IMG/VR virus record: IMGVR_UViG_3300030202_002773
Span: 17,846-81,845 of that record
Strand: one strand, 5' to 3'
DNA: 64,000 nucleotides
Origin: a virus
Shown: positions 47,446-54,477 of the stretch, one piece after another
Position numbering within the stretch: position 1 is the first letter of the stretch
Layout of the letters: every line of letters begins with the position of its first letter
Made by a program: the position numbers and the translations under genes
The notes under the pieces: model-generated
What the model was told of the DNA's origin: nothing
Database searches by the model: none
What the model saw: the letters and a program-made list of their open reading frames with translations, nothing else

Positions 47446-49338
47446 TTATTTTTCCCAACACTCACTAACTGTTACTTCAGCTTTTAGTAAGCCATTTGTT
47501 ACTATTTCTAATGCAGCTTCTTCCATTAATCTTTGCATGTTATGTGTCCAATCAGGTAAATAATCATTTCTACATATTGTATCTATCTGATCATGAACAG
47601 TCATAACTAATTTAATAGGTAAATCAAACTCTTTGATATGATCACGCATTAATATTAAAGCTTTTTTAGTCATATCTGCACTAGCTCCTTGAATAGGTGT
47701 ATTTTTAGATGCTCGTTCAATACTACCTAATTGCATACTAGCTGATTTGTTATCCCATATTCTAGGATACCAACTAGTAAACCATCTCTTCCTATTATAA
47801 GGAGGAAATGTTTTAATGTAACCATATTTTTTACCAAAATTACCTAGTTTATCTAAGAATCCTTTGATTGCTGGGAACGCTTTGAAGTATTTTTTGATGA
47901 GTTCTTCAGCTCTATCCATACTGATGTTAAGAGTATCAGCAAGCTTATTAGGCCCCATCCCATAAGCAAGACCGAAATTAATTGTTTTGACATTATTTCT
48001 AAGTTTTTTATGTTGTTTACATTTACATTTTAATTTTTTAGTCATATATACACAATTATCTTCAGCTGCATCTATCCATTGATCACCATACACCAACTCA
48101 GCACAAGTAGAGTGTAAGTCCTGTCCTTCTTCTAAAGCTTCCAACCATACCGGATCCTTAGATCCAAAGGCAATTACATTTAACTCTTGGCTTGAGTAAT
48201 CTGCACTTACAAATGACCATCCCTCGGGAGCAACAAAACAATTTCTAAATCTATTATCTGCCGGTATCTGTTGCATATTAGGTTTAGATGAGCTTACTCT
48301 ACCTGTGTCTAAAATTTGGTGAAAATTAGTATGAATTTTATTATCTGAAGATAAGTTTTTAAAGAATTTATTACCATAAGATGTACATAATTTCATTGAT
48401 TCTTTATATTTCACATAAGTATCTATAATATTATGTTTAAATCTATATTTATACATTTCTCTACCATTTACATTTTCAAGTTTAGGTACAAGAACTTGGA
48501 ATACTTCTAACACTTGTTTAGGCGATGTCCATTTAATATCTACTTTCCTTAAATTTTCTATTGCTGTAAACATATCTGTTTGAATATATGTAGATACAAA
48601 TTTATTTAATTCATCAGTTTCTATTATTTCTTGATCTAAATTAAAAGCTAAAATATCAGCTTCATTAGTATTTATAATTTCTAATGTTTTCCATTGTTCT
48701 GTATCTAAATCTAAACCATTGTATTCTATATCAGCAAATGATAATACAGCTTCATTTTCTAAATCAACTACATTATTTAATTTATATTTATCTATTAGTG
48801 GTAATTGATGTTGTCTTACTCCTATTAAATATTCTACATCTTTAGCACCATAAACTATTTGATCATCTTTATAAGGTTGACCTGTTAAACCAATAAATTG
48901 ATTTCTTACATCTTTATTTAATTCTACATTTAAATATTTACTACATACATCTTTGAGTCCATATTTCATTCCATCCTTACCACAATTTAATATTCTTTCA
49001 GTAAGGAAGGTGTCATAGACACACTCAACTTCGATATTTGATGTTGCTTTTATAAATTTATAATCAAACTTGGCGTTATGAAATATTTTTATAATATCTT
49101 TAGACTCTAAGATGTTTCTTAAGGGTTCAATTGATACAAACCTTGTATCAACTATGTATTGATTTATCTCATCACCTATTTGAAACATAATCATTTTCTT
49201 ACAAGTGAAATCAAATCCTTCTGTTTCTGTATCTACTCCTAATACTTTCTTATCTTTACAATAATTTACTACATCATCTATTGTAGCAGACTGAAAACTA
49301 GAACTTAAACTTTGTGTTTTACTGATTAAATATATCAT
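47446..49338 (-). CDS. polA: DNA polymerase, family A
   Basis: The protein has 630 residues. The N-terminal proofreading 3'-5' exonuclease shows 'VLGVDTETEGFDF' (D36, E38), 'IFHNAKFDYKF' and 'YGAKDVEYLIG'. The polymerase domain shows 'DTGRVSSSKPNMQQIP', motif A 'FVSADYSSQELNVIA' (near 375), motif B 'VKTINFGLAYGMGPNKLA' (near 450) and motif C 'VMTVHDQID' (near 580). All catalytic Asp residues are present. There is no 5'-nuclease domain; the separate FEN-like gene at 33.3-34.1 kb supplies that activity. It starts 1 bp after the upstream small gene. This is the replicative polymerase of the phage. Confidence 0.95.
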   Translation of the reverse strand: MIYLISKTQSLSSSFQSATIDDVVNYCKDKKVLGVDTETEGFDFTCKKMIMFQIGDEINQYIVDTRFVSIEPLRNILESKDIIKIFHNAKFDYKFIKATSNIEVECVYDTFLTERILNCGKDGMKYGLKDVCSKYLNVELNKDVRNQFIGLTGQPYKDDQIVYGAKDVEYLIGVRQHQLPLIDKYKLNNVVDLENEAVLSFADIEYNGLDLDTEQWKTLEIINTNEADILAFNLDQEIIETDELNKFVSTYIQTDMFTAIENLRKVDIKWTSPKQVLEVFQVLVPKLENVNGREMYKYRFKHNIIDTYVKYKESMKLCTSYGNKFFKNLSSDNKIHTNFHQILDTGRVSSSKPNMQQIPADNRFRNCFVAPEGWSFVSADYSSQELNVIAFGSKDPVWLEALEEGQDLHSTCAELVYGDQWIDAAEDNCVYMTKKLKCKCKQHKKLRNNVKTINFGLAYGMGPNKLADTLNISMDRAEELIKKYFKAFPAIKGFLDKLGNFGKKYGYIKTFPPYNRKRWFTSWYPRIWDNKSASMQLGSIERASKNTPIQGASADMTKKALILMRDHIKEFDLPIKLVMTVHDQIDTICRNDYLPDWTHNMQRLMEEAALEIVTNGLLKAEVTVSECWEK

Positions 49339-50339: not shown

Positions 50340-50462
50340 TTAAATTGTTATTTCAAGACTTATAAATGGTATTAATATTACTAATACTTTATTATTTAGT
50401 CTTGAACCAACACCAATTCCTATTCCTAGGAACGGTGTGAATTCTACATGTATTCTATTCAT
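50340..50462 (-). CDS. Tiny hydrophobic protein, 40 aa
   Basis: This frame encodes MNRIHVEFTPFLGIGIGVGS followed by RLNNKVLVILIPFISLEITI, with an apolar Gly-rich N-terminal part and an apolar C-terminal segment. It starts inside the end of the upstream 73-aa gene (8-bp overlap). The same DNA holds an inverted repeat (50353-50405), so the signal may instead be a structured RNA. Uncertain. Confidence 0.35.
   Translation of the reverse strand: MNRIHVEFTPFLGIGIGVGSRLNNKVLVILIPFISLEITI
50353..50405 (-). repeat. Long inverted repeat, nested hairpin
   Basis: TCAAGACT (50353-50360) pairs with AGTCTTGA (50398-50405). Inside, GTATTA (50369-50374) pairs with TAATAC (50382-50387). The result is a coaxial hairpin with an internal loop, in the gap before the 212-aa gene. 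Confidence 0.5.
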
Positions 50463-50754: not shown

Positions 50755-51108
50755 CTATTTTTCAAGGAATTTAATTACTTCTCTTAAATCTTGTGTTAAA
50801 CCTGATGATTTTACTTGTAAATGTCCTTTTACATCATCTTGAAGACTAAGTTTCTTTACAAGTTTAATGAAATCATAACATTTCTCCAATGTGTTTAACA
50901 TATGCATTGGAGTTTGTTCTCTTTGATTGTCTAATACTTTATGTAAATCAACGATATTGTTTAGATGTTCTCTTTCTTTGAGTAGGTTTTGTTTAAACTC
51001 TTCTTTTAATGCAACATAATCTGATGTTAAATCATCAAGTTGTTTAGTTATTCTAGTTATTTCTAAGTTTTTGTTTAAGATCTTAGTATCTAATTCAATT
51101 GTTTTCAT
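50755..51108 (-). CDS. Coiled-coil early protein, 117 aa
   Basis: Residues about 10-65 ('KILNKNLEITRITKQLDDLT', 'SDYVALKEEFKQNLLKEREH') carry regular heptads and few Gly/Pro, so a long coiled coil is likely. The C-terminal part is helical. No enzyme motif is visible. It is the first gene after the structured region 51.14-51.36 kb and has an A/T-rich leader. Confidence 0.5.
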   Translation of the reverse strand: MKTIELDTKILNKNLEITRITKQLDDLTSDYVALKEEFKQNLLKEREHLNNIVDLHKVLDNQREQTPMHMLNTLEKCYDFIKLVKKLSLQDDVKGHLQVKSSGLTQDLREVIKFLEK

Positions 51109-51143
51109 CTCTTTATTTATTTAGTTAATGTTTAAGTTAAATA

Positions 51144-51231
51144 AAAGAATGAACATCCTCCACTACTTGTCAATGACAGTTACTATAGCCTCCATTGAGT
51201 TTTATAAGCTTCAAAGGTTAGTTCATTCTTT
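51144..51231 (-). ncRNA. Structured element A closed by an 11-bp perfect stem
   Basis: AAAGAATGAAC (51144-51154) is the exact reverse complement of GTTCATTCTTT (51221-51231). The 66-base interior contains the near-palindrome TTGTCAATGACA, which can make a small hairpin. No gene overlaps it. It lies immediately beside element B, with 9 bases between them, in a 256-bp gap. On the minus strand the closing stem is followed by TTATTTAACTTAAAC and the start of the coiled-coil gene. Confidence 0.55.
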
Positions 51232-51240
51232 ATGTTAAAT

Positions 51241-51357
51241 AACAACAGTAAGTTTACTACAGTCTTTTTATGTTTTAAATGTGGTTCATATACCACTCAA
51301 CCGATACTCTTTCAACCGATACTTTTGAGAAGACCTCCACTTTACCTTACTGTTGTT
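51241..51357 (-). ncRNA. Structured element B closed by a 12-bp perfect stem, with internal direct repeats
   Basis: AACAACAGTAAG (51241-51252) pairs perfectly with CTTACTGTTGTT (51346-51357). Inside are a hairpin GTGGT/ACCAC (51281-51285 with 51292-51296) and two direct copies of TCAACCGATACT (51297-51308 and 51312-51323). A CTCAA/TTGAG pair brackets the repeats. Plus-strand frames here give no sensible protein. The architecture suggests an RNA with a purpose, such as a small regulatory or decoy RNA, or a processing signal between early messages. Confidence 0.55.
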
Positions 51358-51364
51358 ATTATTA

Positions 51365-51481
51365 TTATGGACAAGTTGTTGGATTATTACAACTGTACAT
51401 CATACATAACCAAAACAGGATACCTAATGATAGTCCTGTTGTGATTAGTATGTATTGTATTGATTTTATTATTGTTTTCAT
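51365..51481 (-). CDS. Small membrane peptide, 38 aa
   Basis: The sequence is MKTIIKSIQYILITTGLSLG followed by ILFWLCMMYSCNNPTTCP. One transmembrane helix spans about residues 8-28, followed by a Cys-containing tail of about 10 residues. Its ATG overlaps the TGA of the upstream 26-aa frame (ATGA), suggesting coupled translation. It may be an early envelope effector. Short length limits certainty. Confidence 0.45.
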   Translation of the reverse strand: MKTIIKSIQYILITTGLSLGILFWLCMMYSCNNPTTCP

Positions 51482-52046: not shown

Positions 52047-52104
52047 TGTGTTATATTGTATTATATTAGTATTCTAGTTGATTGTCAAATTGTGGGAGAA
52101 TGTA

Positions 52105-52939: not shown

Positions 52940-53209
52940 ATGAAATTTAAACCAAGCGGATCGTGGGTTGTCCTTCCAGACCCAGTAATTACAGAAACAG
53001 AATCAGGAATTATACTAGATGAAAAAACTGCTTTAGAAAACTCTAAGAGATCTAATGTATTAGAGGCATTAGCAGTTGGCCCTACTTGTCACTTTGTAGA
53101 AAAAGGAGATACTGTTATGGTAGATCCCAGATCAGAAGCTGCAAGAACAGAAATTGACGGACAAACTTATCTAATTATTTCAGAACATCAAATACTAGGA
53201 AAGTGGTAA
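52940..53209 (+). CDS. GroES-like co-chaperonin
   Basis: The protein has 89 residues, close to bacterial GroES (about 95). The order of elements fits: 'GSWVVLPDPVITETESGIIL' (the V-L-P-D-P strand and the mobile-loop S-G-I-I-L motif that binds GroEL), 'VLEALAVGPTCHFVEKGDTV' (xVxAVGPG...VxxGDxV), 'TYLIISEHQILG' (Y.ii.E.dIlG). It would cap host GroEL and alter its chamber to fold phage proteins, as T4 gp31 does. No GroEL gene is in the window. It is the first gene after the late promoter, so it is made before or with capsid proteins. Confidence 0.85.
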   Translation: MKFKPSGSWVVLPDPVITETESGIILDEKTALENSKRSNVLEALAVGPTCHFVEKGDTVMVDPRSEAARTEIDGQTYLIISEHQILGKW

Positions 53210-53909: not shown

Positions 53910-54040
53910 TGTTTTTTGGACTAGTCATGACTTTTTTTGAAGCAGATCCTTACGTTATAATTATAATTCAAGATAAAAACGGTAAATTAGTAAATATAAA
54001 AGTAGAAAACAATGAGCAAGATATATCCATCAGTATTTAA
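53909..54040 (+). CDS. Tiny protein, 43 aa
   Basis: It begins MFFGLVMTFFEADPYVIIII and ends in a charged tail. It starts in a TAATG overlap with the winged-helix gene and ends 29 bp inside the next one. A start at the second Met is possible. It may be membrane-associated. Confidence 0.35.
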   Translation: MFFGLVMTFFEADPYVIIIIQDKNGKLVNIKVENNEQDISISI

Positions 54041-54269
54041 AATGATAAGTAATTTTTCTAAAGAGTTAGGAACACACTTACTTAATGGTGCAGAAAATGT
54101 ATCAGAAAAAGATTACAAAGAAAGATTAGAAACATGTTTAATTTGCCCATCTTTAAAAAGAGATGCTATGAGATGTACTACGTGTGGGTGTAAACTAGAA
54201 CAAAAAGCAAAATGGAAAACTTCTGACTGTCCTGAAAAAAAATGGAAGCCTCAGTATGAAAAAAAATAA
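54012..54269 (+). CDS. Small zinc-binding protein, 85 aa
   Basis: The Cys pattern is 'CLICPSLKRD...CTTCGCKLEQKAKW...CPEKKW' over residues about 38-80. This is the CxxC...CxxCGC...CP..kW zinc module common in small proteins of many large phages. The first 35 residues are helical. Its function is unknown; it may bind protein or nucleic acid. Confidence 0.7.
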   Translation: MSKIYPSVFKMISNFSKELGTHLLNGAENVSEKDYKERLETCLICPSLKRDAMRCTTCGCKLEQKAKWKTSDCPEKKWKPQYEKK

Positions 54270-54477
54270 AAAAGAGATTATATATAGTTTAGCTAATAAA
54301 TATGATTTACCTTTGAAAAAAATAGAAGAAATTGTTAACTATCAATTTAAATATACAGCTAAAGTTATGAAAGAGGGTAAATTTGAAATTATACGTCTCC
54401 CATATTTTGGTAAATTCTCTGTAAATTCTAGTAGAGTAAAACATATAAACAAATTAAAAGATGAGTCTAAAGGATGA
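54256..54477 (+). CDS. IHF/HU-like DNA-bending protein, short form
   Basis: The protein has 73 residues (family about 90-100). 'MKKNKKEIIYSLANKYDLPL' and 'IVNYQFKYTAKVMKEGKFEI' match the helix-turn-helix dimer body of HU/IHF, and 'IRLPYFGKFSV' matches the I.GFG.F strand that begins the DNA arms. The arm itself looks shortened. A gene for an IHF-like subunit beside the structural genes is typical of crAss-like phages. It may organise DNA for packaging or late transcription. Confidence 0.75.
   Translation: MKKNKKEIIYSLANKYDLPLKKIEEIVNYQFKYTAKVMKEGKFEIIRLPYFGKFSVNSSRVKHINKLKDESKG

Follow-up and report, generated by a model that had tools for sequence, protein, structure and literature searches.

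Two adjacent domains, each closed by a long perfect stem, fill a gap between early genes of a phage genome and raise the question of whether they are products of chance, sites in DNA or structured RNAs and, in the latter case, of what such RNAs would do. They are located in a 64,000-nt stretch of DNA that was analyzed as a whole (the window) and that comes from an IMG/VR virus record of 81.8 kb. Classified from its sequence, the source is an uncultured crAss-like phage, its terminase being ~41% identical to terminases of gut crAss-like phages; the identity of this terminase rests on tblastn, and Pfam gave no match for it.

The array and its genomic setting

The early and replication genes lie on the minus strand, from ~52.5 kb down to 44 kb, in a leftward operon that encodes a family A DNA polymerase (PolA, 47446-49338, minus strand), a DEAD-type helicase and DnaB. 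Both domains, element A (123 nt, 51238-51360) and element B (88 nt, 51144-51231), sit on the coding (minus) strand of this operon. Their array fills the gap from the stop codon of a 38-aa lipoprotein-like ORF read from the sequence (51365-51481, minus strand), located 4 nt before element A, to the leader of a 117-aa ORF (50755-51108, minus strand) that has no match in Pfam or PHROGs. This leader, TTAACTTAAACATTAACTAAA (51120-51140, minus strand), separates the array from the next start codon (ATG at 51108), and its form TTAACNTAAACATTAACTAAAC is found in 16 other IMG/VR stretches, ahead of unrelated genes. The leader TTAACNTAAACATTAACTAAA also stands ahead of early genes of various kinds in two phage groups that are distant from each other, and it may be a translation start or promoter-like signal that they share.

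Upstream of the array, a candidate early promoter, TTGACA-N17-TATAAT (52060-52088, minus strand), matches the consensus at 12/12 positions, is near-identical in the relative L038 and lies behind a terminator-like hairpin (52237-52202); it may open the transcription unit that contains the array. It is a perfect E. coli-type consensus, which differs from the usual Bacteroidota promoter, and the block recurs in relatives, where it is preceded by CCCACA and followed by TATAACA. Where it was detected (relatives and window), the consensus promoter is 10-818 nt upstream of the elements. A TCCTG hairpin upstream of element A was also considered as a terminator and was rejected because it falls within the 38-aa ORF. 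A GroES (Cpn10) homologue (52940-53209), conserved beside the region of the array, starts a divergent plus-strand (rightward) unit, in which a small protein with a DUF6171 match (54012-54269) is followed by an HU/IHF-like protein (54256-54477). On the other side, the next intergenic gap contains a strong stem-closed fold (50346-50412, minus strand, z -3.7) upstream of a 212-aa gene, which is possibly a third cassette; L001, L018 and L098 likewise carry elements beside the 212-aa gene.

A preliminary description of this locus reported closing stems of 11 and 12 bp that would not be expected by chance. Both stems are present and exact. The 11-bp stem AAAGAATGAAC/GTTCATTCTTT (51144-51154/51221-51231) closes element B; the second one, AACAACAGTAAG/CTTACTGTTGTT, is found at the place noted but extends to 15 bp (51238-51252/51346-51360). 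The argument from rarity holds for this 15-bp stem, of which ~0.1 would be expected per 64 kb and which arose in 1/3000 shuffles of the gap, but not for the 11-bp stem, which is unremarkable by itself (64 kb should contain about 7, and 161/3000 shuffles of the gap yielded a stem of at least 11 bp). The folding is better than that of shuffled sequences on both strands (z -2.9 for minus, z -3.7 for plus). Element B has one relative, L049, whose closing stem is 18 bp long, and is a predicted cassette with a putative interior fold.

Pseudoknot and covariation in element A

Six distinct members of the type represented by element A (type A) were found among related IMG/VR phages: the window, L015, L038, L039, L084 and L087. 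Their core follows the order P1, GGTAAAGTGGAG, P3 5′ arm, loop, ACCACATYTAAAAC, spacer, P3 3′ arm, TGTAGTAAAC and P1′. On the minus strand of the window, P1 is the 15-bp closing stem (51360-51346 with 51252-51238), P2 pairs GTGG (51337-51340) with CCAC (51281-51284) and is invariant in 6/6 members, and P3 pairs GTCTT (51330-51334) with AAGAC (51262-51266) and crosses P2. The sequence of P3 varies among members (GTCTT/AAGAC, TGTTCT/AGAACA, TATCC/GGATA, TGTCT/AGACA and TGATC/GATCA), and 5/5 of its pairs have changed on both sides yet remain paired across relatives. Altogether, 24 pairs are 100% paired (141/141 cells), compared to 30-53% of the cells in slid control versions, eight pairs show double-sided change, and the covariation score was reached by 0/500 shuffles. 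These comparisons argue that type A is an H-type pseudoknot in which P3 crosses GTGG/CCAC, with strong support for P3 and silence for P2, because there are six sequences only and P2 is invariant among them. A covariance model of this type (R1) gave 83-105 bits to type A members and 20.8 bits to the next match; its scan of 1.16 Mb of relatives revealed no confident match beyond these members.

The two features that had first drawn attention inside element A have a more limited scope. The two copies of TCAACCGATACT (51297-51308 and 51312-51323, plus-strand reading of the minus-strand element) are exact, but this doubled 12-mer is an insert in a variable loop, confined to the window and L015, and not a feature of the core. 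Similarly, the local GTGGT/ACCAC hairpin exists but is absent from most members; the conserved partner of CCAC is the upstream GTGG that forms the pseudoknot. The hairpin and the doubled 12-mer were therefore rejected as a functional core, most members having neither. Finally, the sequence CCTCCACT is common to elements A and B, which hold two of its four copies in the window, and shows no wider pattern.

The variable slot and exchange of its elements

To extend the comparison beyond type A, 80 loci encoding PolA relatives were fetched from IMG/VR and stems were read wherever upstream sequence sufficed. Long perfect stems spanning ~60-200 nt recur in these loci, mostly 1.5-2.8 kb upstream of the polymerase, and their sequences differ. 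When stems of at least 11 bp were counted against first-order shuffles, this slot showed a 5.5-fold enrichment (24 observed, 4.3 expected), which is the decisive evidence that the elements are real. Outside the slot, the enrichment is 0.6-1.5-fold: four stems compared to 6.2 expected just downstream, 15 compared to 10.2 further upstream and 34 compared to 28.8 over the polymerase and helicases. The comparison shows that this early-operon region is a hypervariable slot. One to several putative RNAs occupy it; they belong to no fewer than seven families (A-G), which are unrelated to each other and all have a long closing stem. Covariation was detected in four of these families (A, C, D and G). 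Type C (13 aligned sequences) displays three double-sided covarying pairs in one helix and two in P1, and carries a GGTTA-GTGA-TAACC hairpin with a GNRA-like loop; types D and G show independent covariation, and types E and F were recognized via shared cores. Failure of pairing to be conserved across relatives had been named beforehand as a possible refutation; once tested, pairing proved to be conserved, with covariation that includes the pseudoknot.

Several observations bear on the strand. The RNAalifold energy is lower on the coding strand in 5/5 aligned families (A, C, D, F and G), and the downstream genes share the orientation of the elements; a few rows of the comparison list a short opposite-strand ORF (72-73 aa) first, which was taken as spurious. 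Hand-picked helices contain 15 G-U pairs vs 0 A-C pairs, a count that reflects a biased choice, and an unbiased scan of closing helices in the slot found no excess of G-U over A-C pairs (9 vs 9). Taken as a whole, covariation, coding-strand folds, orientation and the consensus promoter upstream support the initial proposal of independent structured domains that are explained by no gene and are probably early RNA. The other initial proposal, binding sites for a protein, is a poor fit with covarying pseudoknots if these sites are taken as DNA.

The elements are combined differently from phage to phage: A-B in the window, G-A with two further elements in L038, E-F in L111, D-C in L050 and L051, and A in L015. 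Within type C elements, conservation stays near 1.0 as far as the border of P1 and drops immediately upstream. Furthermore, elements are shared with a second phage group (L103, L110, L112, L114 and L116); the terminases of L103 and L110 are 88% identical to each other and 27-29% identical to those of the clade of the window. The type C element of L103 is 97.8% identical to that of L032/L033, and the 300 nt upstream of it show no detectable similarity between these phages. The presence of near-identical type C elements in distant clades, preceded by dissimilar sequences, indicates that the stem-closed domain moves as a unit and is the unit of inheritance and exchange, even between distant phages. 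The second group, despite terminases only 27-29% identical, also has the leader together with stem-closed elements; this sharing suggests that the two groups probably share hosts.

Rfam 15 gave 0 matches at the gathering threshold in the window and 12 relatives, and nothing above chance at permissive thresholds; ARAGORN detected no tRNA or tmRNA in the window. Against reference phages, blastn of the window region returned only a 46-nt A+T-rich match, mostly to holin genes of Escherichia phages, which was judged to be due to chance, and no match for the elements of L051 and L038. The core patterns of types A and D are absent from GTDB genomes; therefore, no mimicked host RNA was found. No report of these elements was found in open-licence PMC papers.

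Possible roles and comparison with known systems

The structure of the cassettes is well supported; their function, including an anti-defence or regulatory role, we infer. We give an even chance to the reading that A and B are RNA cassettes of the early operon that are cut out of its transcript and whose targets in trans are host or defence factors. The cassettes would be transcribed within the early operon from the upstream promoter, and the closing stem would fix their ends and shield them from the host RNases that trim the transcript of the operon, each domain being released as a stable small RNA. The released RNAs would then act as decoys or inhibitors of host factors, each family having its own target, most likely defence or RNA-metabolism proteins. 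Trans-acting RNAs with separate targets would explain why the elements turn over rapidly, are stacked in tandem, lie early and are exchanged horizontally. More tentatively, as a possibility that falls short of probable, the array would consist of exchangeable stem-closed RNA cassettes, each family of which inhibits a different host defence or RNA-processing protein.

The main rival explanation, which we consider rather unlikely, is that these RNAs act in cis in the early operon, either by antitermination similar to that of HK022 put or as intercistronic barriers that stabilize the early mRNA. The array is indeed close behind a strong early promoter and near the transcript start (in L014, it begins 10 nt past the conserved promoter block), the elements are placed between genes of a single operon, and in early phage transcription put RNA can suppress termination by itself (PMC9378689). 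However, the stacking and swapping of unrelated families would be unexpected for one conserved contact with RNA polymerase, and the conserved complex cores in their interiors would be superfluous for a mere barrier. In L012, L020, L032 and L111, a terminator-like hairpin, GCTGTGATACAGC-CTTTT or a close form, is conserved directly before the array and could be relevant to antitermination.

If the stem is instead a terminal inverted repeat, the elements could be small mobile DNA elements, or DNA sites for replication or recombination, which would fit their exchange at the borders of the stem, the inverted repeats at either end and the horizontal spread. We regard this as improbable, since these inverted repeats differ and covary between members rather than being conserved, covariation extends to an internal pseudoknot, orientation and slot are fixed, consensus folds favour the coding strand and the flanks, judged by eye, have no consistent target-site duplication. 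Regulation in cis that is specific to the next gene, for example by a riboswitch, is more doubtful still. The elements often end ~20-50 nt before a start codon and have conserved unpaired cores, but, apart from the window and L015, the proteins encoded after type A are unrelated, those encoded after type C are many and unrelated, and members of one protein family are found behind different types, all of which makes a gene-specific switch unlikely. Self-cleaving ribozymes or other catalytic RNAs, evoked by the compact, stem-closed pseudoknot and its conserved core, are the least probable; neither the window nor 12 relatives gave a match to an Rfam ribozyme.

To our knowledge, few cases of RNA-based counter-defence are known. 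If the elements are trans-acting inhibitors, the array would parallel, in RNA, an anti-defence gene island and would be a new class of phage counter-host weapon, and a slot of crAss-like phages that stacks unrelated RNAs and exchanges them even with distant phages would show that phages share a pool of RNA effectors, akin to anti-defence proteins. Should their role prove to be in cis, a single phage operon with seven structured RNA families that had not been reported would still be an arrangement of a new kind. Overall, the swapping of RNAs as cassettes within the slot of related phages suggests a class of early phage RNAs, possibly host-acting, and the families defined here provide concrete sequences for expression and pull-down.

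As ornate phage-associated structured RNAs of unknown function, the elements recall GOLLD, which is however a much larger RNA; they have no Rfam match above chance. By analogy, the nearest systems in manner of action would be HK022 put, Racr and the pseudo-ToxI of phage PhiTE. Like the elements, put is a structured RNA of early phage transcription located near a promoter (PMC9378689), and the elements likewise lie early in the early transcript, behind a promoter-like block. However, put acts in cis on RNA polymerase, whereas here many families occur in tandem and are exchanged between phages; at least seven unrelated families in the slot do not amount to one conserved fold contacting RNA polymerase. 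RNA anti-CRISPRs (Racrs) are a precedent for RNA counter-defence and are small phage RNAs with many different forms (PMC10651486); they mimic a CRISPR repeat, whereas the folds found here are larger, have several helices and include a pseudoknot. ToxI consists of 36-nt direct repeats of one sequence, whereas the elements are single domains of 60-190 nt that belong to different families and have long closing stems. No tandem repeats of one pseudoknot unit were found in the array: A and B are unrelated and single-copy, and the 12-mer pair in the variable loop of element A, whose copies are 15 nt apart, is the sole direct repeat. No adjacent toxin gene was found either, the small early-operon neighbours having no match in Pfam or PHROGs and the downstream gene varying among phages. 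The H-type pseudoknot typical of ToxI was found in element A only. Pseudo-ToxI, a precedent for RNA counter-defence against the type III toxin-antitoxin system ToxIN, resembles the elements in being a phage-encoded non-coding pseudoknot RNA that can be spread by recombination (PMC3475682).
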